Shown: piece by piece, positions 2,400 to 38,879 of the stretch
How the letters are laid out: every line of letters starts with the position of its first letter
How positions within the stretch are numbered: the stretch's first letter is position 1
Source: Komagataeibacter oboediens
GTDB taxonomy: Bacteria; Pseudomonadota; Alphaproteobacteria; Acetobacterales; Acetobacteraceae
NCBI RefSeq assembly: GCF_003207815.1
Contig: NZ_NKTX01000004.1
Coordinates: 62,001-126,000, forward strand
Direction: 5' to 3'
Length of the DNA stretch: 64,000 bases
The notes under the pieces: model-generated
What the model saw: the letters and a program-made list of their open reading frames with translations, nothing else
Databases searched by the model: none
What the model was told of the DNA's origin: nothing
Translations under genes and position numbers: made by a program

Positions 2400-2541
2400 G
2401 GGAATCCGAAAGACAGGGGATCAGGACGACGGCGGACGCCGCGCTATCGGCATATCCACGAATTCCCGGCACCTTGTCCATCATCCATGGTGCATGAAAC
2501 ACATGCGCGGCCGGGCTGGCCATGCAGCCCGCCTGTGCAGG

Positions 2542-3204
2542 TCAGATACCGAAGCTGGCCACCAGGTCCATCAGCCCCACCTGCCGGTGGCGTTCCAGCC
2601 TGGCCGCCACCAGCACGGCGCGGGCTTCCGCGATGGCCGTATCAAGATCGGAATTGATGATGACGTGGTCGAATTCATTCCAGTGCGAGATCTCGTCCCG
2701 CGCGGCCTGCATGCGGCGCGCGATCTCATCCGCCTCATCCGATGCGCGGCCATGCAGGCGGCGTTCGAGCTCCTCGATCGAAGGCGGCAGCACGAACAGG
2801 CTGATCACATCCCCCGGCAGGGCGGCGCGGATCTGGCGGTGCCCCTGCCAGTCAATGTCGAACACCATGTCGCGCCCCTCCGACAGGGCCTGTTCCACCG
2901 GGGCGCGGGGGGTGCCGTATCCCCGGCCGAACACGGTCGCCCATTCCAGCATCTCGCCCGCATCCGCCATGCGGGTGAATTCGTCCATGCTGCGGAAATG
3001 ATAATGGATCCCGTCCGTTTCCCCCGGTCGCGGCTGTCGGGTGGTCACGGATACGGAATGCAGCAGCTGCGGCTCCGACGCCCGTAACGCATTGGCAATG
3101 GTTGACTTGCCCGCACCGGATGGCGCTGAAATAACCAGACAGACCCCACGGCGCCGGACCGGGGCCGCAGGGGGCGTGCGGGGGGAAATGGGTGCTTGGG
3201 TCAT
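2542..3204 (-). CDS. gmk: Guanylate kinase
   Basis: Guanylate kinase phosphorylates GMP to GDP with ATP in purine nucleotide synthesis. The P-loop SAPSGAGKST is followed by the GMP-binding region (SVTTRQPRPGETDGIHYHF), both typical of the family. A start at 3204 gives 220 residues beginning MTQAPIS and has a good AAGGAGA ribosome site just upstream. An earlier in-frame start at 3249 lacks such a site and would add a non-conserved extension. The gene is divergent from the SDR at 3295. Confidence 0.95.
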   Translation of the reverse strand: MTQAPISPRTPPAAPVRRRGVCLVISAPSGAGKSTIANALRASEPQLLHSVSVTTRQPRPGETDGIHYHFRSMDEFTRMADAGEMLEWATVFGRGYGTPRAPVEQALSEGRDMVFDIDWQGHRQIRAALPGDVISLFVLPPSIEELERRLHGRASDEADEIARRMQAARDEISHWNEFDHVIINSDLDTAIAEARAVLVAARLERHRQVGLMDLVASFGI

Positions 3205-3294
3205 GCCGGTCTCCTTGGCGGTGGCGGTGCAAATGCGCGCCGGATGCATAAACGGGGTAGCGCAGTTCTAACAGGGAGTATGTAGTCTGCGAAT

Positions 3295-4128
3295 ATGAAA
3301 CAGGATTCGATACTCATTACCGGCGCGTCCTCGGGGATCGGACGCGGACTTGCCCTGGCCCTTGCCCGGCCGGGACGCACGCTGCATCTGGGTGGCCGTA
3401 ATGCCGACGCCCTGCGCGACGTGGCGACACGCTGCATTGCACGCGGCGCCGACGCCCGCGTGCAGGTGCGTGACGTGCGCGATCAGGCCGGCATGGAACA
3501 ATGGATTGGCACTGCGGGCCCGCTGGACCTGGTCTTTGCGTGCGCGGGCATAACCGCCTCCACCCGTGGAGAGGATGACGCGCCTCATGAACCCGATGCG
3601 CAGGTCCGCCGCATGTTCACGACCAACGTGGATGGTGTGCTGAACACGGTGCTGCCCGCGCTGCATGTCATGCGCGCGCAGCCACGCGGAAGCGACGGGG
3701 TGCGTGGACGCATCTGCGCCATGTCATCGGTGGCGGGACTTGTGTCCTTTCCCGGCACGCCGTCCTATTGCGCATCCAAGGCGGCGGTGGACCGCTTCAT
3801 GGTGGCGACAGGGGCCAACATGAAACGGGCAGGCATTGTCATGTCCAGCGTATGCTGCGGCTTTGTTGCCACCCCCATGACCGCGCAGAACGATTTCCAC
3901 ATGCCCGGCCTGACCCAGACAGGCGACGCGGTGCGCGCCATCCTGTCGGGTGTGGCGCGCGGCAGGCGACGCATCGCGTTCCCGTGGTGGCTGGCGGCGG
4001 GATCACGCTTCATGGACCTGCTGCCGATCCGGGTTGCCGAATACTATTATTACCGCCAGCCCGCAGGACAGGCAGGCACCATGGCGGAAACCGGGCTGAG
4101 CGCGGACCATGCCACGTCATCCACGTAA
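3295..4128 (+). CDS. Short-chain dehydrogenase/reductase
   Basis: This 277-residue classical SDR oxidoreductase has the NAD(P)-binding motif TGASSGIGRG near residue 10. The substrate-site Ser lies in SSVAGLVSFPG and the catalytic YxxxK in SYCASKAAVD. The N-terminal strand-turn with a following TLHLGGRN suggests NADP(H), but this is not certain. The C-terminal part contains a hydrophobic patch (WWLAAGSRFMDLLPI) seen in membrane-associated SDRs. The substrate is unknown. The gene is followed by the RND permease 63 bp later on the same strand, but no functional link is evident. Confidence 0.88.
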   Translation: MKQDSILITGASSGIGRGLALALARPGRTLHLGGRNADALRDVATRCIARGADARVQVRDVRDQAGMEQWIGTAGPLDLVFACAGITASTRGEDDAPHEPDAQVRRMFTTNVDGVLNTVLPALHVMRAQPRGSDGVRGRICAMSSVAGLVSFPGTPSYCASKAAVDRFMVATGANMKRAGIVMSSVCCGFVATPMTAQNDFHMPGLTQTGDAVRAILSGVARGRRRIAFPWWLAAGSRFMDLLPIRVAEYYYYRQPAGQAGTMAETGLSADHATSST

Positions 4129-28487: not shown

Positions 28488-29549
28488 TCATACATCCCGT
28501 ATGGTCTTGATCAGGTCGCCCACATGTTCCGGGGGCGTGGTGGGAATGACCCCATGGCCAAGATTGAAGACATGGGGGCGTCCCTTCATCGCATCACGGA
28601 TGGCGCGGGCTTCGGCACGCATGCCTTCACCACCCGCCAGCACGCGGATCGGGTCAAGGTTGCCCTGCAGCACCAGCGTGTCAGGCACTTTTTCCGCAAC
28701 GGCCTTCATGTCGGCCCCGGTATCCAGGGCCATCGCGTTTACGCCGGTCACATGCCCGTATTCAATCGCCATGAGCCCGGCCAGACGCGGGAAGCCGATG
28801 ACCGGCACACCGGGATGGCGGGCGTTGATGATTTCGGTAATCCGGCGTGCGGGTTCAATGACATGCTTGCGGAACTGTGACGGCGGCAGCAGGCCCGACC
28901 AGCTGTCAAACAGCATGACCGCTTCAGCCCCGGCGCTGATCTGGTTGCACAGCATGTCCGCGGTGGAGGTGGTCAGCAGGTCGATCAGCCGGTCAAAGAA
29001 TGCGGGATCGGTATAGGCCAGCCTGCGTGTTTCCTCGAACTCACGCGATCCATGGCCTTCCACCATGTAGCACGCCACCGTAAACGGCGCGCCGGCAAAG
29101 CCGATCAGCGTGACCTGTCCCGGTCTGGCCGGACCGATCGCCTCCGGACCGTCAACAGCCTTGCGCAGCCGCCCCAGCGTTTCCATGACCGGGCGGGTCG
29201 CCTGTTCTACCCGTGTCGGGTCCAGCTGGTCCAGGTCGGCCTGTGAACGGACCGCCCCCAGGACTGGCCCCCTGCCCGGCACGAATTCCAGCGACTGCCC
29301 CATTGCCCATGGCAGGATGAGGATATCGGAAAACAGGATCGCCCCATCCATGCCAAAGCGGCGGATGGGCTGCAGCGTGAGGTCCACCGCCATGTCCGGG
29401 GTCATGCAGCGGGTTATGAAATCCGCCTTTTCACGCAGCGCCCGGAATTCTGGCAGGAACCGGCCCGCCTGCCGCATCAGCCATACCGGAGGTGGCCATG
29501 TTGCCTCTCCCAACAGGGTGGCGAGCAGGGGTTTGCGTGTTTCAGTCAT
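28488..29549 (-). CDS. hemE: Uroporphyrinogen decarboxylase
   Basis: This 353-residue enzyme converts uroporphyrinogen III to coproporphyrinogen III by removing four carboxylates. The N-terminal signature PPVWLMRQAGRFLPEFRALR is intact, including the Arg residues that bind substrate, and the active-site Asp region DGAILFSDILILPWAMG follows. Length is standard. It heads a leftward operon with the HAD hydrolase and hemJ. In many alphaproteobacteria hemE borders the chromosomal replication origin, and the gap to its right here has matching features. Confidence 0.96.
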   Translation of the reverse strand: MTETRKPLLATLLGEATWPPPVWLMRQAGRFLPEFRALREKADFITRCMTPDMAVDLTLQPIRRFGMDGAILFSDILILPWAMGQSLEFVPGRGPVLGAVRSQADLDQLDPTRVEQATRPVMETLGRLRKAVDGPEAIGPARPGQVTLIGFAGAPFTVACYMVEGHGSREFEETRRLAYTDPAFFDRLIDLLTTSTADMLCNQISAGAEAVMLFDSWSGLLPPSQFRKHVIEPARRITEIINARHPGVPVIGFPRLAGLMAIEYGHVTGVNAMALDTGADMKAVAEKVPDTLVLQGNLDPIRVLAGGEGMRAEARAIRDAMKGRPHVFNLGHGVIPTTPPEHVGDLIKTIRDV

Positions 29550-29955
29550 CGATCCGTCGTTCTGTTTCGTTGTGGCCGGACTATCTCGTACTTTCGCCGT
29601 GACGGATAGCGGGCAGGCACAACGCGCGCGCCTCTTTCAAAACAATAAAAGAAAAGAGAAAGAAAATTTTTGATGTGCTTTAAGTGCTGTGGATGACGGG
29701 GTACCCACGTTTCCGAAAATGTACCCCACTTTTCCCACAGAGTGTACAGTTTCCGACTCCAAGGATTCCCGCGCCTGTGGACGGTTATCCAGAATGTACC
29801 GACATAAGCCTGTGTACAACCCACCGCGAATGGAGGTGTACCCATTGTCCACGGTACTCGGTACGGCACAGAATTGTTTGGAGTACTGTCCCCATGTACC
29901 CCAGTACTCGAACGCGCCGAAATTCATGTTTCACTTCGGTAGTACGGAGAGGGCA
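29550..29955. other. Candidate chromosomal replication origin (oriC)
   Basis: This 406-bp non-coding gap lies between divergent hemE and maf, the known oriC neighbourhood in alphaproteobacteria such as Caulobacter. Seen directly: an A/G-rich tract (29638-29670) that could unwind, and DnaA-box-like 9-mers (TTWTNCACA allowing one mismatch) at 29688-29696 (reverse), 29731-29739, 29785-29793 and 29811-29819 (reverse). A weaker one is at 29845-29853. The GTAC tetramer is also strongly overrepresented. Highly expressed genes on the left (atp, heme) and right (dnaK, pqq) are mostly oriented away from it. That this is oriC is inference; no skew calculation was possible. Confidence 0.7.
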
Positions 29956-30022
29956 ATGCCAGACGACTCGAATTTAGTACTAAAGCCCCTGCCATTACAG
30001 GCGGAGTCGCCCGCGATAGTAC
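29588..30022. repeat. GTAC-motif array across the hemE-maf gap and the start of maf
   Basis: GTAC occurs at 29588, 29701, 29721, 29744, 29796, 29814, 29838, 29854, 29861, 29883, 29896, 29904, 29942, 29977 and 30019. That is 15 copies in 435 bp where fewer than two are expected by chance. Two extended forms recur: TGTACCCCA-like (29720, 29837, 29895) and AGTACTCG-like (29853, 29903, 30018). Confidence 0.85.
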
Positions 30023-30600
30023 TCGCCAGCCGCTCCAGCGCACGGCGGAGTCTGCTGGAATCGGCGGGAGTGCGGGCGGATTACAGATCGGCGGATGTTG
30101 ATGAACACGCCATTCGCGATGATGCCCGTGCCCGCGGCATGGCGCCGGGGCAGACGGCCTTTGAACTGGCCCGCGCCAAGGCCCGCGCCGTCAGTGTGGA
30201 CCGCGGCGCGATCGTGATCGGGGCGGATCAGATGCTGTCATGTGAAGGGGCATGGTTTGACAAGCCGGAAAGCCTGGACAGGGCCCGCCAGCAGTTACGC
30301 ATGCTGCGCGGCAGGCCGCATGTCCTGCATACGGCGGTGGTGATGCTGCGTGACGGGGTCGAGGTCTGGCGGCATGTCGCCTGTCCCGTGCTGCACATGC
30401 GTGTGTTCAGCGACTCCTTTCTCGAGCGGTATCTGGCGATCGAAGGCGATGCGATTCTGTCCTGTGTCGGGTGTTACCGGCTGGAGGGCATGGGCATTCA
30501 CCTGTTTTCCCGGGTGGAAGGGGAACATTCCGCCATTATGGGACTGCCCCTGCTGGCGGTGCTGCAGGCTCTGCGGGCACAGCATATCATCCTGCAATAA
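29956..30600 (+). CDS. maf: Maf-family nucleotide pyrophosphatase
   Basis: This 214-residue protein of the Maf family hydrolyses non-canonical or pyrimidine nucleoside triphosphates to monophosphates. The family opening IVLASRSSARRSLLESAGV and the catalytic Asp region VIGADQML are clear, as is GDAILSCVGCYRLEGMG. The ATG at 29956 follows GGAGAGGG. An earlier in-frame ATG at 29689 would read through the origin-like region and is rejected. The first 25 codons contain codons unusual for this genome (TTA GTA CTA, ATA GTA). In other alphaproteobacteria maf is followed by aroE, coaE and dnaQ; here a tRNA follows instead. Confidence 0.92.
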   Translation: MPDDSNLVLKPLPLQAESPAIVLASRSSARRSLLESAGVRADYRSADVDEHAIRDDARARGMAPGQTAFELARAKARAVSVDRGAIVIGADQMLSCEGAWFDKPESLDRARQQLRMLRGRPHVLHTAVVMLRDGVEVWRHVACPVLHMRVFSDSFLERYLAIEGDAILSCVGCYRLEGMGIHLFSRVEGEHSAIMGLPLLAVLQALRAQHIILQ

Positions 30601-33254: not shown

Positions 33255-34193
33255 TCAGCCTGCCTTGTCCAGTTCCGCTTCAAGCTGCGGCAGGATGGTG
33301 AACAGGTCGCCCACGATCCCGTAATCCGCGACCTGGAAGATCGGTGCTTCGGGGTCCTTGTTCACCGCAACGATCACCTTGCTGTCTTTCATCCCGGCCA
33401 GATGCTGGATCTGACCCGAAATCCCCATGGCGATATACAGTTCCGGCGCCACGATCTTGCCGGTCTGGCCCACCTGGTATTCGTTGGACACGAAGCCCTT
33501 GTCCACCGCTGCGCGCGAAGCGCCGATGGCGGCACCCAGACGGTCGGCCAGCGGTTCCAGCAGCTTGAAGTTTTCTTCGTTCTGCATGCCATTACCGCCC
33601 GAAACCACAACGCGGGCGGATTCCAGTTCCGGCCGTTCGGACTTCGACAGTTCGGTGGCGACGAAAGTGGACCCACCCGGACCTGCGGGCAGGGCCACTT
33701 CCTCGATCACCGCATTGCCGCCTTCGCTTGCCACCGGATCGAAGGAAGATGCGCGGACCGTGATGATCTTTTTTGCATCCGCCGACTTTACCGTCGCCAG
33801 CGCGCTGCCGGCATAGATGGGACGGACAAAGGTATCGGCGTCGTTGATGGCGACGATATCAGGGATCGGCTGCACATCCAGCAGCGCGGCCGTGCGCGGC
33901 AGGACGTTCTTCGCCGTAGCAGATGACGCCGCCAGGATATGGCTGTAACCCGACGCCAGATCCGCCAGCAGGGCGGCAACCGGTTCGGCCAGTTCGCTGC
34001 TGCCGGTGGTGTCAGTAACCTGCAGTACCTTTTTCACGCCCGGAATGGCGGCGGCGGATTTTGCAGCGGCAGCCGCGTCCGGCCCGGTGACCAGCACATC
34101 GACATCGCCCAGCTGGCTGGCGGCCGCAATGGCGGAACGCGAGGCCTGGCGGATCGCCCCGGCTTCATGATCCAGATAAACGAGTACGGTCAT
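33255..34193 (-). CDS. etfA: Electron transfer flavoprotein alpha subunit
   Basis: This 312-residue alpha subunit of the FAD/AMP-containing ETF dimer accepts electrons from acyl-CoA and other dehydrogenases. The C-terminal FAD-binding segment [20 protein letters not shown] is the family signature, followed by [20 protein letters not shown]. The N-terminal domain is also normal. It starts 2 bp after the etfB stop, so the subunits are translationally coupled, and ETF-QO lies just upstream, giving the whole path to ubiquinone. Confidence 0.96.
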
Positions 34194-34195
34194 GA

Positions 34196-34945
34196 TCAGA
34201 TCACCTTTGCTTCGTTACGCAGACGCGACACCAGTTCCGCTGCCGAGTCGAGCTTGATCCCCGCCTTGCGTTCAGGCGGTTCGGCAACCGAGATCACGCT
34301 CAGTCGCGGCGTCATGTCCACGCCCAGATCGGCAGGCGTGATCTTTTCCATCGGCTTCTTGCGCGCCTTCATGATGTTGGGCAGCGAAGCGTAGCGCGGC
34401 TCGTTCAGGCGCAGGTCTGCGGTAATGATGGCCGGCAGCGCCAGCTTTACGGTCTGGGACCCGCCATCAATCTCGCGCGTGACGGTTACCGCGGCATCGG
34501 CCACGTCCACCTTGGAGGCAAAGGTCGCCTGCGGGCGGCCCAGCAGGCCCGCCAGCATCTGCCCGGTGGCGTTCATGTCATCATCAATGGCCTGCTTGCC
34601 AAGGATGATCAGGTCGGGCTTTTCCTTTTCCACCAGTGCCTTGAGCACCTTGGCCACCGAAAGCGGTTCGGTCACCACATCGGTTTCCACCAGAATGGAC
34701 CGGTCGGCCCCCATGGCCATGGCCGTGCGCAGCGTGTCCTGCGCCTTGGGCTCACCGATCGAAACCGCGACGATTTCGCTCACCACGCCTTTTTCCTTCA
34801 GGCGCACGGCTTCCTCAACCGCGATTTCATCAAACGGATTCATGGACATCTTGACGCCGGCGGTTTCAACACCGGAACCATCGGCTTTCACTCGCGGTTT
34901 GATGTTGTAATCAATCACGCGCTTAACGGGTACAAGAACCTTCAT
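34196..34945 (-). CDS. etfB: Electron transfer flavoprotein beta subunit
   Basis: This 249-residue beta subunit of ETF opens [14 protein letters not shown]. It contains [21 protein letters not shown] and the ETF-beta signature region [22 protein letters not shown], and ends with the recognition-loop part [14 protein letters not shown] that docks to partner dehydrogenases. The start at 34945 is fixed by homology; the longer frame upstream is non-conserved. It lies 71 bp downstream of the ETF-QO gene, in the same operon. Confidence 0.96.
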
Positions 34946-35016
34946 TGCATATTTGCCTGTCTGTCTTCGGATAAGGGCAATCGGTGTGGCAGATACATAC
35001 CGTACCTGCCATATGA

Positions 35017-36681
35017 TTACATCCCGCCGGGATAGTTCGGACCGCCTGCCCCCTCCGGCGTGACCCAGTCGATGTTCTGGGCGGGGTCCTTGATGTCGCA
35101 AGTCTTGCAGTGGACGCAGTTCTGCGCGTTGATCTGCAGGTGGGGGTCCGTGCCCTCATCCGCCACTTCATAAACGGCTGCCGGGCAGTACCGGCTTTCG
35201 GGGGAGCGGAACACATCCCAGTTCACCGTCTTCCACAGCGACATGTTGCGGACCTTCAGGTGAACCGGCTGGTCTTCTTCATGATTGGTGTTGGACAGGA
35301 AGACCGAGGACAGGCGATCGAACGTGATCTTGCCATCGGGCTTTGGATAACTGATCTTTTCCGAAATCGAGGCCGGTTCCAGCACTTCGTTGTCGCTGTG
35401 CCGCGTATGCAGCGTCCATGGTGCGCGGCCACGCAGCAGCATGGCGTCGATGCCCGAATACAGCGCGCCGCCCTTCATGCCGAATTTGGCGAAGGCGGGG
35501 CGGATGTTGCGTACCGAACGCAGTTCCGTCCACAGCCAGGAATCCCGGATGCGGCGGGTATAGGATCCCGGTTCCACCCGGTCCGTCGCCAGCGCTTCCG
35601 CCACGGCTTCCGCCGCCAGCATGCCCGACTTCATGGCCGTGTGGGTGCCTTTGATCTTGGGTACGTTCAGGAAGCCTGCCGTATCGCCAATCAGTGCCCC
35701 GCCGGGGAAGGTCAGGCGCGGGATAGACTGGATTCCCCCTTCGGACAGCGCACGCGCGCCATAGGCGATGCGGCGACCGCCCTCGAAATACGGGCGGAAG
35801 GCCGGGTGCAGCTTCACGCGCTGCATTTCATCAAACGGGGACAGCCATGTGTTGGGATAGTCCAGTCCCGTGACAAACCCGTAGGACACCAGGTTGTCAC
35901 CAAAATGGTACATCCACGCCCCGCCATAGGTCCGGTCATCCAGCGGCCAGCCAAAGCTGTGCTGCACCAGTCCGGGGCGATGCATTTCCCTGGGGATTTC
36001 CCACAGTTCCTTGATACCCAGCCCGTAGGTCTGCGGGTCCACGCCCTTGCGCAGGTTGTACATCGCCGTGACCTGCTTGGTCAGCGACCCGCGGCAGCCT
36101 TCTGCAAACAGCGTGTATTTCGCGCGCAGTTCCATGCCCGGCGCGTAATTGTCGCCTGGCTTGCCATCGCGGCCGATGCCCATGTCCCCGGTGGCGACGC
36201 CGGTTACCCGGCCGCTATCGTCCACCAGCACCTCCGCACCCGCGAAACCGGGATAGATCTCGACCCCCAGTTCTTCCGCCCGGCCCGCAAGCCAGCGGCA
36301 GAAATCGCCAAGGCTTACGATATGGTTGCCGTGGTTGCTCATGTGCGGCATCACGCGGTCAAGGAACGGGATTTCAAGGCTGCCGTTCCGTGTCAGGTAG
36401 AGCATCTGCTCCTCTGTCACGGGCGTGTTCAGCGGGGCCCCTTCCTCGCGCCAGTGCGGCAGGAGTTCCGCAAGCGCACGGGGTTCGATCACGGCACCGG
36501 ACAGGATATGGGCGCCAATCTCGCTGCCTTTCTCAATCAGGCAGACGCTCGCCTCGGGGGCAACCTGCCGCAGCCGGATCGCCGCCGCCAGCCCCGATGG
36601 GCCGCCGCCAACAATAACGACATCGAATTCCATAGTCTCGCGCGGGGTCTCGCTCATACCTCTGTTGTCCTCTTGCGTCAT
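35017..36681 (-). CDS. Electron transfer flavoprotein-ubiquinone oxidoreductase
   Basis: This 554-residue membrane-associated enzyme passes electrons from ETF to ubiquinone. It has an N-terminal FAD site ([18 protein letters not shown]) and the ubiquinone-binding midsection. At the C-terminus there is a [4Fe-4S] ferredoxin-like domain with Cys in YCPAAVYEV and [19 protein letters not shown]. Length fits the family. Starts at 36681 and 36657 are both possible; neither has an ideal ribosome site. The operon ETF-QO-etfB-etfA suggests oxidation of fatty acyl-CoA, branched-chain acyl-CoA or sarcosine-type substrates feeding the quinone pool. Confidence 0.95.
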
Positions 36682-36812
36682 GACCGGGGTGACATGGGAT
36701 GAATGGGATGAATGGGATTACACTGTATAGCAGTGCTTCCTAGAACCGTTTGGTGCGCGAATAAAGGCTTGTTGCGCATTCCGTTCCTTCGGTCCGTGCA
36801 ATGGCGGTGCGT

Positions 36813-37454
36813 TCAGGGTGCTGCCGTCCCGCGGGCCAGTTCGTCCGTTGCCCGCCATTCCGGGCCGACATAGTTGACGATCAGTGTCCTGCGTATGCCC
36901 GTCATCGGGCGCGGGACGAAGCCGTGCCATGACCGGGCGGATGGTATGAACAGCAACCCCGAATTGAACATGCCCGAAGCCCGCGCCACGACCGCGCCCG
37001 ATGCGGTCATGAGGTCGGTGCCCCACTGTGTCGCCTGCGCACCCATGGAAAGTGAGATCACAAGCGTCAGCCGCTTGGCGCCGATATCGGTATGCGGCTC
37101 CAGCCAGAAACCATCCGTATCAAGGCATAGTTCAAGGCGCAGGGCCGCGTTTTCAAGATGGGCGTCGCACCTGTCCGCAAAGGCGGCGCGTGTCTGCGTC
37201 GTGTCAAACAGGGTTGCCAGATGGTCCAGCGCCGTGTTCGCCGCGCGTTGCGCGGGCGTGATGAACAGCCGTTTCCCGTTGCGTCCCGCCCGCTGGCCAC
37301 CACTGTCGCCACCTATGAAACGGGCATCTGGCGTCCATGTCACCAGTGCCGCGGCCACCGGCGCGGGCAGTACGTCATAAAGCTGCCAGTGCGGAAAGGG
37401 CCACGGCGTAGCCGGCGTGGCGGCAAGGGCTGCGATGACGCAATTCGTTTCCAT
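36813..37454 (-). CDS. 2-oxoglutarate/Fe(II)-dependent oxygenase family protein
   Basis: This 213-residue protein has the double-stranded beta-helix iron site. His and Asp lie in WLEPHTDIGAKRLTLVISL (HxD), a distal His in ARSWHGFVPRPM, and the 2-oxoglutarate-binding Arg in TGIRRTLIVNYV. Related enzymes hydroxylate proteins or small molecules and need oxygen. It lies 57 bp downstream of hemN in the same direction and so may share the low-oxygen promoter of that operon, which is odd for an oxygenase. The substrate is unknown. Confidence 0.8.
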   Translation of the reverse strand: METNCVIAALAATPATPWPFPHWQLYDVLPAPVAAALVTWTPDARFIGGDSGGQRAGRNGKRLFITPAQRAANTALDHLATLFDTTQTRAAFADRCDAHLENAALRLELCLDTDGFWLEPHTDIGAKRLTLVISLSMGAQATQWGTDLMTASGAVVARASGMFNSGLLFIPSARSWHGFVPRPMTGIRRTLIVNYVGPEWRATDELARGTAAP

Positions 37455-37511
37455 GGGAAAAGGTTCTGCTGCTCTGGGCCTGCGCTGCCATCGGGGGCGG
37501 CGGCCTGTGGG

Positions 37512-38879
37512 TTACAGGGCGCTGGCGTGGCGGGTGGCACTGTCCGCTGTCAGGTACCGGTCGAAGGCGGCGGCGACGTGGCGCACGAACTGGCGCCCCT
37601 TTTCCGTGACCTGTATCTGGCGGCCGGTGATGCGGACCAGCCCATCCGCCACCATGGGAGCCAGATGCGCCAGTTCGGGGACAAAATGGCTGGTGGGCAG
37701 GTGATACTGCGCGCAGACCTCCGCCAGATCGACCCGCAGGTCGCACATGACCTGTTCTATGATCGCGGCGCGCACATGATCATCCGCATCCAGCTTCACA
37801 CCGCGCACGACAGGCAGGCTGTCGGGGCTGTTTCCCATAAGCCGGGCATAGGCGGCGGACGAGACGGCATTTTGCGTCATGCCGCCGGGAAGCGAGGAAA
37901 TGGCCGATGCCCCCACGCCGATCAGGGCCGGTGCCGTATCGGTGGTATAGCCCTGGAAATTACGGTGCAGCGTGCCGGAGGCCATGGCACGCGCCATGCT
38001 GTCGTGCGGGCTGACGTAATGATCCAGGCCCACCGGCAGGAAGCCTTCGTTACGCAGGGTCGCGTCAATCGCCGCGCGCTGGGCAATGCGCGTCTGCGGG
38101 CCGGGCAGGTCGCCCACCGGCATCAGGTTCTGGCGCTTCTGTTTCCATGGCACATGCGCATAACCGAAAACTGCCAGACGATCGGGATGCAGGCTGGCCA
38201 CCGCGCGGGCCGTGCGCGCCACGCCTGCCGTGTCCTGCCGTGGCAGGCCGTAGATCAGGTCGATGTTGATGGAGTTCACCCCCGCATCCCGCAGGGCGGT
38301 CAGGCAGTCGCTGGTCTGTTCCCAGCTCTGGATCCGGCCACAGGCGTCCTGCACGTCCGCATCAAGATCCTGCACGCCCATGCTGGCGCGGTTGAACCCG
38401 AGTTCATGCAGAAGGGCCGGATAGTCGGGGGGAAGATGCCGGGGATCGACCTCGATGCTGATTTCGGCATCCGGAGCGATATCGAAATCCCGGCGGATGG
38501 CCTGCATGACGCGGCGCATGGCGCTGGCCGGGAGTGTCGTGGGCGTGCCACCGCCCCATTGCAGGTGCGTGACCCGGCGGCCGGGGCCGATCAGGGTGAT
38601 GATGCGGCGCAGTTCCTCATGCAGCAGGGCGGCATAGGCGGCCCGCGCATCCGCATTGCGCAGAACGGCGGTATTGCACCCGCAGAACCGGCACAGCGTG
38701 TCACAGAAGGGAACATGCAAATAAAGGGAAACCGGCTGGTCCGCCGGGAGGGAGGACAGCCACGCACGGCTGTCGTCCGGTCCCACCGCATCACTGAACT
38801 GCGCTGCGGTGGGGTAACTGGTGTAACGCGGCAGGTTGCCCCCATAACGGGAAAGCAGGGAACTGTCCGCCGCGTTCAT
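37512..38879 (-). CDS. hemN: Oxygen-independent coproporphyrinogen III oxidase
   Basis: This 455-residue radical SAM enzyme converts coproporphyrinogen III to protoporphyrinogen IX without oxygen. The [4Fe-4S]/SAM motif CDTLCRFCGC (CxxxCxxCxC) lies near residue 60 after YLHVPF. The family-specific HLQWGGGTPTTL and SMGVQDLDADVQ segments and a C-terminal HemN domain follow. The N-terminal LPRYTSYPTAAQF motif separates true HemN from HemW. It lies 4 bp after ompW, under a perfect FNR box, which fits induction when oxygen is scarce. Confidence 0.95.
   Translation of the reverse strand: MNAADSSLLSRYGGNLPRYTSYPTAAQFSDAVGPDDSRAWLSSLPADQPVSLYLHVPFCDTLCRFCGCNTAVLRNADARAAYAALLHEELRRIITLIGPGRRVTHLQWGGGTPTTLPASAMRRVMQAIRRDFDIAPDAEISIEVDPRHLPPDYPALLHELGFNRASMGVQDLDADVQDACGRIQSWEQTSDCLTALRDAGVNSINIDLIYGLPRQDTAGVARTARAVASLHPDRLAVFGYAHVPWKQKRQNLMPVGDLPGPQTRIAQRAAIDATLRNEGFLPVGLDHYVSPHDSMARAMASGTLHRNFQGYTTDTAPALIGVGASAISSLPGGMTQNAVSSAAYARLMGNSPDSLPVVRGVKLDADDHVRAAIIEQVMCDLRVDLAEVCAQYHLPTSHFVPELAHLAPMVADGLVRITGRQIQVTEKGRQFVRHVAAAFDRYLTADSATRHASAL

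Follow-up and report, generated by a model that had tools for sequence, protein, structure and literature searches.

The window, that is, the whole stretch of 64,000 nucleotides that was analysed, contains at 29588-30022 a region that extends from the gap beside hemE into a maf-like gene, and in which GTAC tetramers are interleaved with DnaA boxes, partly lying inside them, at a rigid spacing. Based on the hemE-maf gap, the DnaA boxes, an A/G-rich tract and a switch in GC skew, we consider this stretch likely to be the chromosome origin of Komagataeibacter. Alphaproteobacterial origins are expected beside hemE, and the origin of Caulobacter adjoins this gene. The window's HemE protein and that of Komagataeibacter intermedius TF2 are 99% identical. 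On the 3.0 Mb contig of a congener (G012), negative GC skew gives way to positive at 1.82-1.98 Mb; the array is found at 1.967 Mb, and dnaA is near position 1. A second switch, in the opposite direction, occurs at 0.47-0.62 Mb. In the window itself, the cumulative GC skew reaches its minimum at 34001-38000, several kb rightward of the array, presumably in or near the electron-transfer flavoprotein region, according to gene names taken from the translations of open reading frames. Our reading of the hemE-maf gap as the origin differs from the oriC placement in the relevant passage of a report on Acetobacter pasteurianus 386B, where strand-biased sequences and Ori-Finder were used to place it near dnaA (PMC3751514).

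The elements of the region are listed below by their positions in the window. Conservation refers to 27 representative origins, and the palindromic GTAC sites are given without a strand.

28488-29549, minus strand: hemE, uroporphyrinogen decarboxylase, left neighbour (open reading frame; NCBIfam TIGR01464 above cut-off)
29588-29591: outlying GTAC near the hemE start; identical offset in 12 of 12 named Komagataeibacter loci
29639-29671, plus strand: A/G-rich tract, candidate unwinding element by its sequence; A-rich at the same place in a 21-row alignment
29688-29696, minus strand: DnaA box 1, TGTGGATGA, adjoining the A-rich tract; 27 of 27 share the first three letters, the others are kept in 41-89%
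29701-29704: GTAC site A (GGGGTACCC); kept in 27 of 27, a score partly built in, as explained for site B
29721-29724: GTAC site B (YGTACCCC); kept in 27 of 27, a score partly built in, as for site A, because two GTACs at a distance of 20 bp served to select the representatives
29731-29739, plus strand: DnaA box 2, TTTCCCACA; 67-100% conserved per position
29744-29747: GTAC site C; kept in 24 of 27
29785-29793, plus strand: DnaA box TTATCCAGA; first six letters 93-100% conserved
29796-29799: lineage-specific GTAC; kept in 2 of 27
29811-29819, minus strand: TGTGTACAA, with GTAC site E at 29814; GTAC kept in 27 of 27
29838-29841: lineage-specific GTAC; kept in 3 of 27
29845-29853, plus strand: DnaA box TTGTCCACG; the relative at locus L036 has TTATCCACA
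29854-29864: GTAC sites F1 (29854) and F2 (29861), GTACTCGGTAC; kept in 21 and 23 of 27
29883-29886: GTAC site G1; kept in 20 of 27
29887-29895, plus strand: TGTCCCCAT, whose TCCCCA is the Caulobacter W-box consensus (as given in the part of PMC4285127 used here)
29896-29899: GTAC site G2; kept in 26 of 27
29904-29907: GTAC site G3; kept in 14 of 27
29942-29945: GTAC upstream of maf; its offset from site A is common to Komagataeibacter and Gluconacetobacter representatives except Ga. entanii, where it is 10 bp further from site A
29956-30600, plus strand: maf-like gene, right neighbour (from an in-frame ATG of the open reading frame; Pfam PF02545 Maf above cut-off)
29977-29980: GTAC in TTTAGTACTAAA, first maf codons; recurs, to about 10 bp, in Novacetimonas, Gluconacetobacter and most Acetobacter representatives
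30019-30022: GTAC inside maf; offset kept in three Komagataeibacter and three of four Gluconacetobacter representatives

The best conserved element is TGTGTACAA at site E, with eight letters at 100% and the ninth at 96% in the representatives; its reverse is the DnaA-box-like TTGTACACA. At 29926-29937 there is also ATGTTTCACTTC, which we take to resemble half a parS site and which has a similar stretch in the aligned Novacetimonas sequence.

GTAC density and the probable unit under selection

The original prediction counted fifteen GTAC tetramers in these 435 bp and put the chance expectation below two. The count is exact, and the GTAC rate in the remainder of the window (1.71 per kb, no 435 bp containing more than 4) gives an expectation of 0.74, for which the Poisson P of the observed number is 4e-15. 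None of 2000 dinucleotide shuffles of the stretch reaches 15 (mean 2.5, maximum 8). In the organism's own genome (G000; 3.78 Mb in 278 contigs), a pattern of three GTACs with gaps of at most 30 bp has 24 forward matches, seven of them at the origin locus, which is the only place where they form a long overlapping chain, and twenty 20-kb samples from a complete congener chromosome contain at most 5 GTAC per 435 bp. A similar density was therefore not found elsewhere in the pattern search of the genome, in the window or in the congener samples. A second, small cluster, with four GTACs within 34 bp, is located in the same genome at C228:10851-10884. As for other motifs, GATC, the one used by Dam and SeqA, does not occur in the 435 bp, and GANTC occurs 4 times, compared with 92 in the 64 kb and about 0.6 expected.

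Among 136 tetramers, GTAC shows the strongest enrichment in the 27 representative origins, with 280 occurrences versus 47.9 by a first-order Markov model (5.8-fold), an expectation that is inflated by the array itself; the next enriched palindromic tetramer is CATG, at 1.6-fold. The letters of site G1 are kept in 78-89% of the representatives, the eight positions to their left in 15-44%, and the two to their right in 30% and 15%. Lineages also bear extra GTACs at positions of their own and with differing flanks: 58 GTACs lie outside the recurrent positions, a number little above the inflated 47.9 and well above the approximately 15 expected at window background. Since the GTAC cores survive where their flanks drift, the tetramer itself seems to be selected, and from these comparisons the palindromic GTAC seems to be the selected unit of the array. 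The two extended forms that had been described around the tetramers, TGTACCCCA and AGTACTCG, do exist, but neither is an invariant unit, as the GTAC is kept where the flanks differ.

Conservation of the array in the Acetobacteraceae

The comparison of hemE-maf gaps in relatives shows that the array is conserved; neither of the two outcomes that the original prediction named as refuting it, similar density elsewhere or no conservation, was obtained in the sequences searched. At least 10 GTAC are present in the 900 bp upstream of hemE in 67 of 80 named loci, including all Komagataeibacter, Novacetimonas, Gluconacetobacter, Acetobacter and Gluconobacter of the set. The other named loci are five deeper relatives with 6-9 GTAC and eight with 0-3, namely six Bombella, Parasaccharibacter apium and Acetobacteraceae B3987. 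The GTAC spacings of 20, 23 and 70-71 bp recur from genomes of 32% GC (L243) to 71% GC (L092), and in most acetic acid bacteria they are followed by spacings of 40, 7, 22, 13 and 8.

We also searched for an array signature consisting of box 1 and sites A and B, with up to three mismatches and the reversed sequence as control. It has one match each in 59 of 249 family genomes, representing 27 of 102 genera (three of the 59 matches, in G188, G190 and G115, are doubtful), against 2 of 249 genomes for the reversed control; it misses real arrays, for example those of G163, G213, G253 and G284, with 10-11 GTAC each. Class-wide, 3 of 385 genomes match, all three of them Acetobacteraceae. In eight small genomes (genus codes g57 and g125) the signature is situated about 20-27 kb from hemE, which indicates that the array is not a hemE promoter; the three of these genomes counted as representatives have 10-12 GTAC. 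This separation of hemE and signature probably explains the zeros of the Bombella type upstream of hemE. Taken as a whole, the array is very probably a working origin element of the acetic acid bacteria. A large clade of the Acetobacteraceae has GGGGACGCA, GGGGAGGCA or GGGGATGCA at the position of site A instead of GGGGTACCC, an alternative element seen upstream of hemE in L253, L255, L256, L258, L261, L265 and L268.

A solitary methyltransferase and its co-occurrence with the array

Besides a CcrM-like enzyme, a second PF01555 enzyme of about 300 aa was found by score in 19 of 19 Komagataeibacter genomes, G000 included, and was confirmed with a protein query in 5 of the 19. In G000, this solitary beta-class methyltransferase is encoded outside the window, at C111:307932-308714. 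Beta-class N4-cytosine methyltransferases carry an S/TPPY motif ahead of an FxGxG motif, and 11 translations of the enzyme have TSPPY followed by DPF(M/A/V)G(T/A)GT. Among solved chains, the nearest are N4-cytosine methyltransferases by their annotation, with adenine enzymes next in the same list, and the best model in the defence library is a generic type II methyltransferase; the literature search found no paper on the nearest solved structures. From these motifs and matches, the predicted chemistry is probably N4-cytosine (m4C-like). The CcrM-like enzyme of G000 scores 621 bits against the Caulobacter CcrM model, below the cut-off of 830, and in L207 a methyltransferase-like open reading frame with a DPPY motif (2476-3831) lies directly downstream of the CcrM-like gene.

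At an E value of 1e-20, 113 of 249 family genomes have the solitary enzyme, a number that includes weak 32% matches in G187 and G230 and a gene split over contig ends in G223; at 1e-25 it is found in 4 of 385 class genomes, all four in the Acetobacteraceae. The gene order in G000, G031 and G026 is tim44, mltA, methyltransferase, di-haem cytochrome peroxidase and a Smr-domain gene, with secB ahead of tim44 in G000 and G026; G012 has the same flanks, the gene after the enzyme lying outside the scan. Pfam scans of 19 flanking open reading frames in L196, L197, L199 and L245 revealed no restriction endonuclease near the enzyme; three of these reading frames gave no Pfam match, and all three overlap real genes on the opposite strand. 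In L196 and L199 the gene directly after the methyltransferase is the cytochrome peroxidase, which has no match in the defence library. In six genomes of five deeper genera the enzyme is encoded 5-9 kb from hemE. A second copy, 60% identical, is present beside the usual one in G209 (C1:2003438-2004202; L365). A premature stop in G249 and G090 was considered and rejected, as the aligned translations have no internal stop. More distant relatives, at 44-53% identity, are found on a Paracoccus plasmid (NZ_CP067127.1, 258461-259339; L272) and in Synechococcus phages (H3-H13). Neither the plasmid relatives (Paracoccus, 49-53%) nor the phage relatives (Synechococcus and uncultured phage, 44-50%) indicate a specificity, and neither of the two plasmid regions with such relatives contains an annotated restriction endonuclease.

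Only two of the 59 signature genomes, G188 and G190, lack the methyltransferase, and each of them has 2 GTACs in 330 bp. Of the 89 genomes whose origin was located, 50 carry the enzyme; 35 of these 50 have at least 3 GTAC in 330 bp, the other 15 having fewer, and none of the 39 without the enzyme reaches this number. The GTAC of site A is kept in 12 of the 39 genomes scored without the enzyme, three of these 12 being less than 90% complete, and is missing in one enzyme-bearing genome (G246). This wider association is confounded by ancestry, because enzyme and array follow large clades of the HemE tree, in which the located-origin genomes provide a single well-supported independent pair; the same ground weakens the idea that the enzyme is tracked by site A on its own.

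Within the acetic-acid-bacteria clade, origin GTACs number 6-14 in each of the 28 placed enzyme-bearing genomes, while the three without the enzyme have 1 (G071), 0 (G157) and 0 (G107) in the 1.5 kb upstream of hemE, these three having been picked after their lack of the enzyme was noticed. They nest in the clade (31 rows, support 100/99), and a tree that groups the 28 enzyme-bearing rows without them is rejected at a modest p of 0.037, in a test whose group was named after the tree was seen. In all three, maf adjoins hemE without the kinase gene of the deeper genera; a close enzyme match is absent, with no match in G071 and only 33% matches in G157 and G107. In the 2.0 Mb genome of G107 (L368; L366), the place of the array is taken by about 270 bp with 14 perfect TTATCCACA boxes. 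Nine more enzyme-bearing signature genomes outside the tree (G074, G250, G064, G067, G088, G090, G111, G112 and G127) have 8-13 GTAC, and G073 has neither the enzyme nor a HemE match.

The joint absence of array and enzyme suggests a methylation-based control of replication start that would use a different tag than that of E. coli, although it may represent one event in fast-evolving genomes that lost other genes too. That the array and the methyltransferase are unrelated, and that shared ancestry plus genome reduction produced their joint distribution, is a possibility that we consider rather unlikely. The changes on the tree that can be counted as independent are few, the exceptions lie outside the acetic-acid-bacteria clade, and the lineage of G107, G071 and G157 may have shed many genes. 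Small or AT-rich genomes that bear the enzyme (g65, G031 and G249) nevertheless keep 7-11 GTACs; moreover, of the five supported tree-independent pairs, 2.0-3.8 show the array together with the enzyme and 0 show the opposite, with no difference in the rest, the pairs being too few for significance (p 0.06-0.5). We infer a GTAC specificity for the enzyme, other specificities being possible for such a methyltransferase, and regard it as reasonably probable that it is the writer of the array.

Known systems and possible mechanisms

The original prediction compared the locus with Dam and SeqA at the origin of E. coli. The likeness now includes a candidate enzyme for GTAC methylation, a conserved solitary methyltransferase predicted to be N4-cytosine-like and missing in the three placed clade genomes that have no array. 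In both cases a palindromic tetramer is dense at the origin and overlaps DnaA sites, as described for E. coli oriC in the portion of PMC4285127 considered, and a solitary methyltransferase is here the candidate writer. The differences are that the tetramer is GTAC instead of GATC and that the enzyme is, by its predicted chemistry, of m4C type instead of m6A. In addition, GATC is present in the dnaA promoter region of E. coli, unlike GTAC in G000, where 500 bp of the dnaA promoter region contain no GTAC at all. To our knowledge, methylation-timed initiation has been worked out in detail mainly for Dam and SeqA, and for CcrM in a different role.

With respect to novelty, the suggestion of a new type of origin control goes too far, since clusters of motifs of orphan methylases at origins have already been described in four lineages (PMC4752239). 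In that study (Blow 2016), a search of methylomes for conserved motif clusters led to four orphan enzymes, all of which have clusters at putative origins: GATC, TTAA in Arthrobacter, CTCGAG in Nocardia and CTAG in haloarchaea (PMC4752239). Neither GTAC nor Acetobacter appears in its main text. The case presented here resembles those clusters in that an orphan enzyme is conserved along with a motif cluster of orthologous origins, the two tending, inside the acetic-acid-bacteria clade, to be present or absent together, with few independent events and exceptions in deeper lineages; it differs from them in motif and lineage, and in that the motif of the enzyme is here deduced from the cluster, whereas there it came from methylomes (PMC4752239). 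The GTAC cluster is conserved at orthologous origin positions, and the conserved methyltransferase (113 of 249 family genomes) has no cognate restriction enzyme in the flanks scanned at four loci. Judged from sequence alone, array and enzyme would be a fifth orphan-methyltransferase origin cluster.

The Caulobacter origin, with its CtrA, G- and W-boxes and CcrM/GANTC, offers a further comparison, since the locus has the W-box-like TCCCCA and the genome a CcrM-like enzyme, while the GANTC count of the stretch is four; we know of no description of a dense GTAC array for Caulobacter. An alphaproteobacterial GTAC methyltransferase, M.RsaI from Rhodobacter blasticus 28/5, makes m4C (PMC6256690), which fits the chemistry predicted for our candidate. 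M.RsaI differs in coming from the strain that yields the restriction enzyme RsaI; the likeness noted here is one of predicted m4C chemistry. Among the literature matches listed for GTAC methylation in acetic acid bacteria and for GTAC at origins, which left aside subscription journals and REBASE, none concerns this array, and no methylation data for an acetic acid bacterium were among them. Another lineage with its own tetramer, a candidate enzyme and relatives without both makes it testable whether such clocks arise repeatedly, and the GTAC case in particular whether m4C can fill the role of m6A. These tests are easy in acetic acid bacteria, which can be cultivated and are used in industry, and the precise map of the origin concerns strains used for cellulose and vinegar production.

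The account that we favour as the most likely mechanism, with moderate confidence, is a Dam-like timing by methylation. The solitary methyltransferase would methylate GTAC; after replication, the dense sites of the origin would stay hemimethylated for a time; their methylation state would alter the loading of DnaA, whether by a direct effect on boxes like TTGTACACA or via a reader protein; and the altered loading would stop origins from refiring at once. The hemimethylation, the chemistry and the effect on DnaA are steps that we infer. In a narrower version, which we regard as tentative and on the whole unlikely, an N4-cytosine mark within DnaA boxes (TTGTACACA) and at the flanking GTACs would gate DnaA directly, the orphan enzyme would serve as the origin clock with no SeqA-like reader, and the origin would have been rebuilt from plain TTATCCACA boxes once the G107 lineage had lost the enzyme.

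Instead of methylation, which would then be irrelevant, a sequence-specific protein could bind unmodified GTAC half-sites and build a rigid nucleoprotein complex. The rigid spacings and the near-invariant sites are consistent with such a protein, and some deeper-clade genomes without the methyltransferase keep the GTAC at site A; however, variable flanks and extra lineage-specific GTACs would be odd for a long binding motif, there is no array within the clade where there is no methyltransferase, and no partner protein was found. We therefore consider a binding protein of this kind doubtful.

Less probable still is that the GTACs are mainly part of divergent DnaA sites of this lineage, both TTGTACACA and low-affinity sites with a CCCCA end, and that the region is an ordinary DnaA array. 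The reverse of TGTGTACAA is one letter off TTATACACA, which we take to be an E. coli DnaA box, and G107 has its perfect boxes in place of the array. Against this reading, most of the GTAC sites are unlike a DnaA box, and RDHTT, the motif with which DnaA reads DNA, is the same in the translated genomes with the array and in those without it. Moreover, the fifth letter of the DnaA box consensus is free, and the GTAC of site E is kept in every representative despite this freedom. Two related candidates were rejected. An altered specificity of DnaA is contradicted by the intact RDHTT in the DnaA domains translated, and a neighbouring G-to-N change occurs alike in G000, which has the array, and in G021, G022 and G023, which do not. 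A second DnaA-like protein is contradicted by the single DnaA_C match in G000 and in all 18 congeners. Finally, a chance or compositional cluster without function has practically no likelihood left, being refuted by the conservation of the array and of its spacing across genera, by the Poisson and shuffle statistics, and by the enrichment of GTAC far beyond that of CATG among palindromic tetramers.
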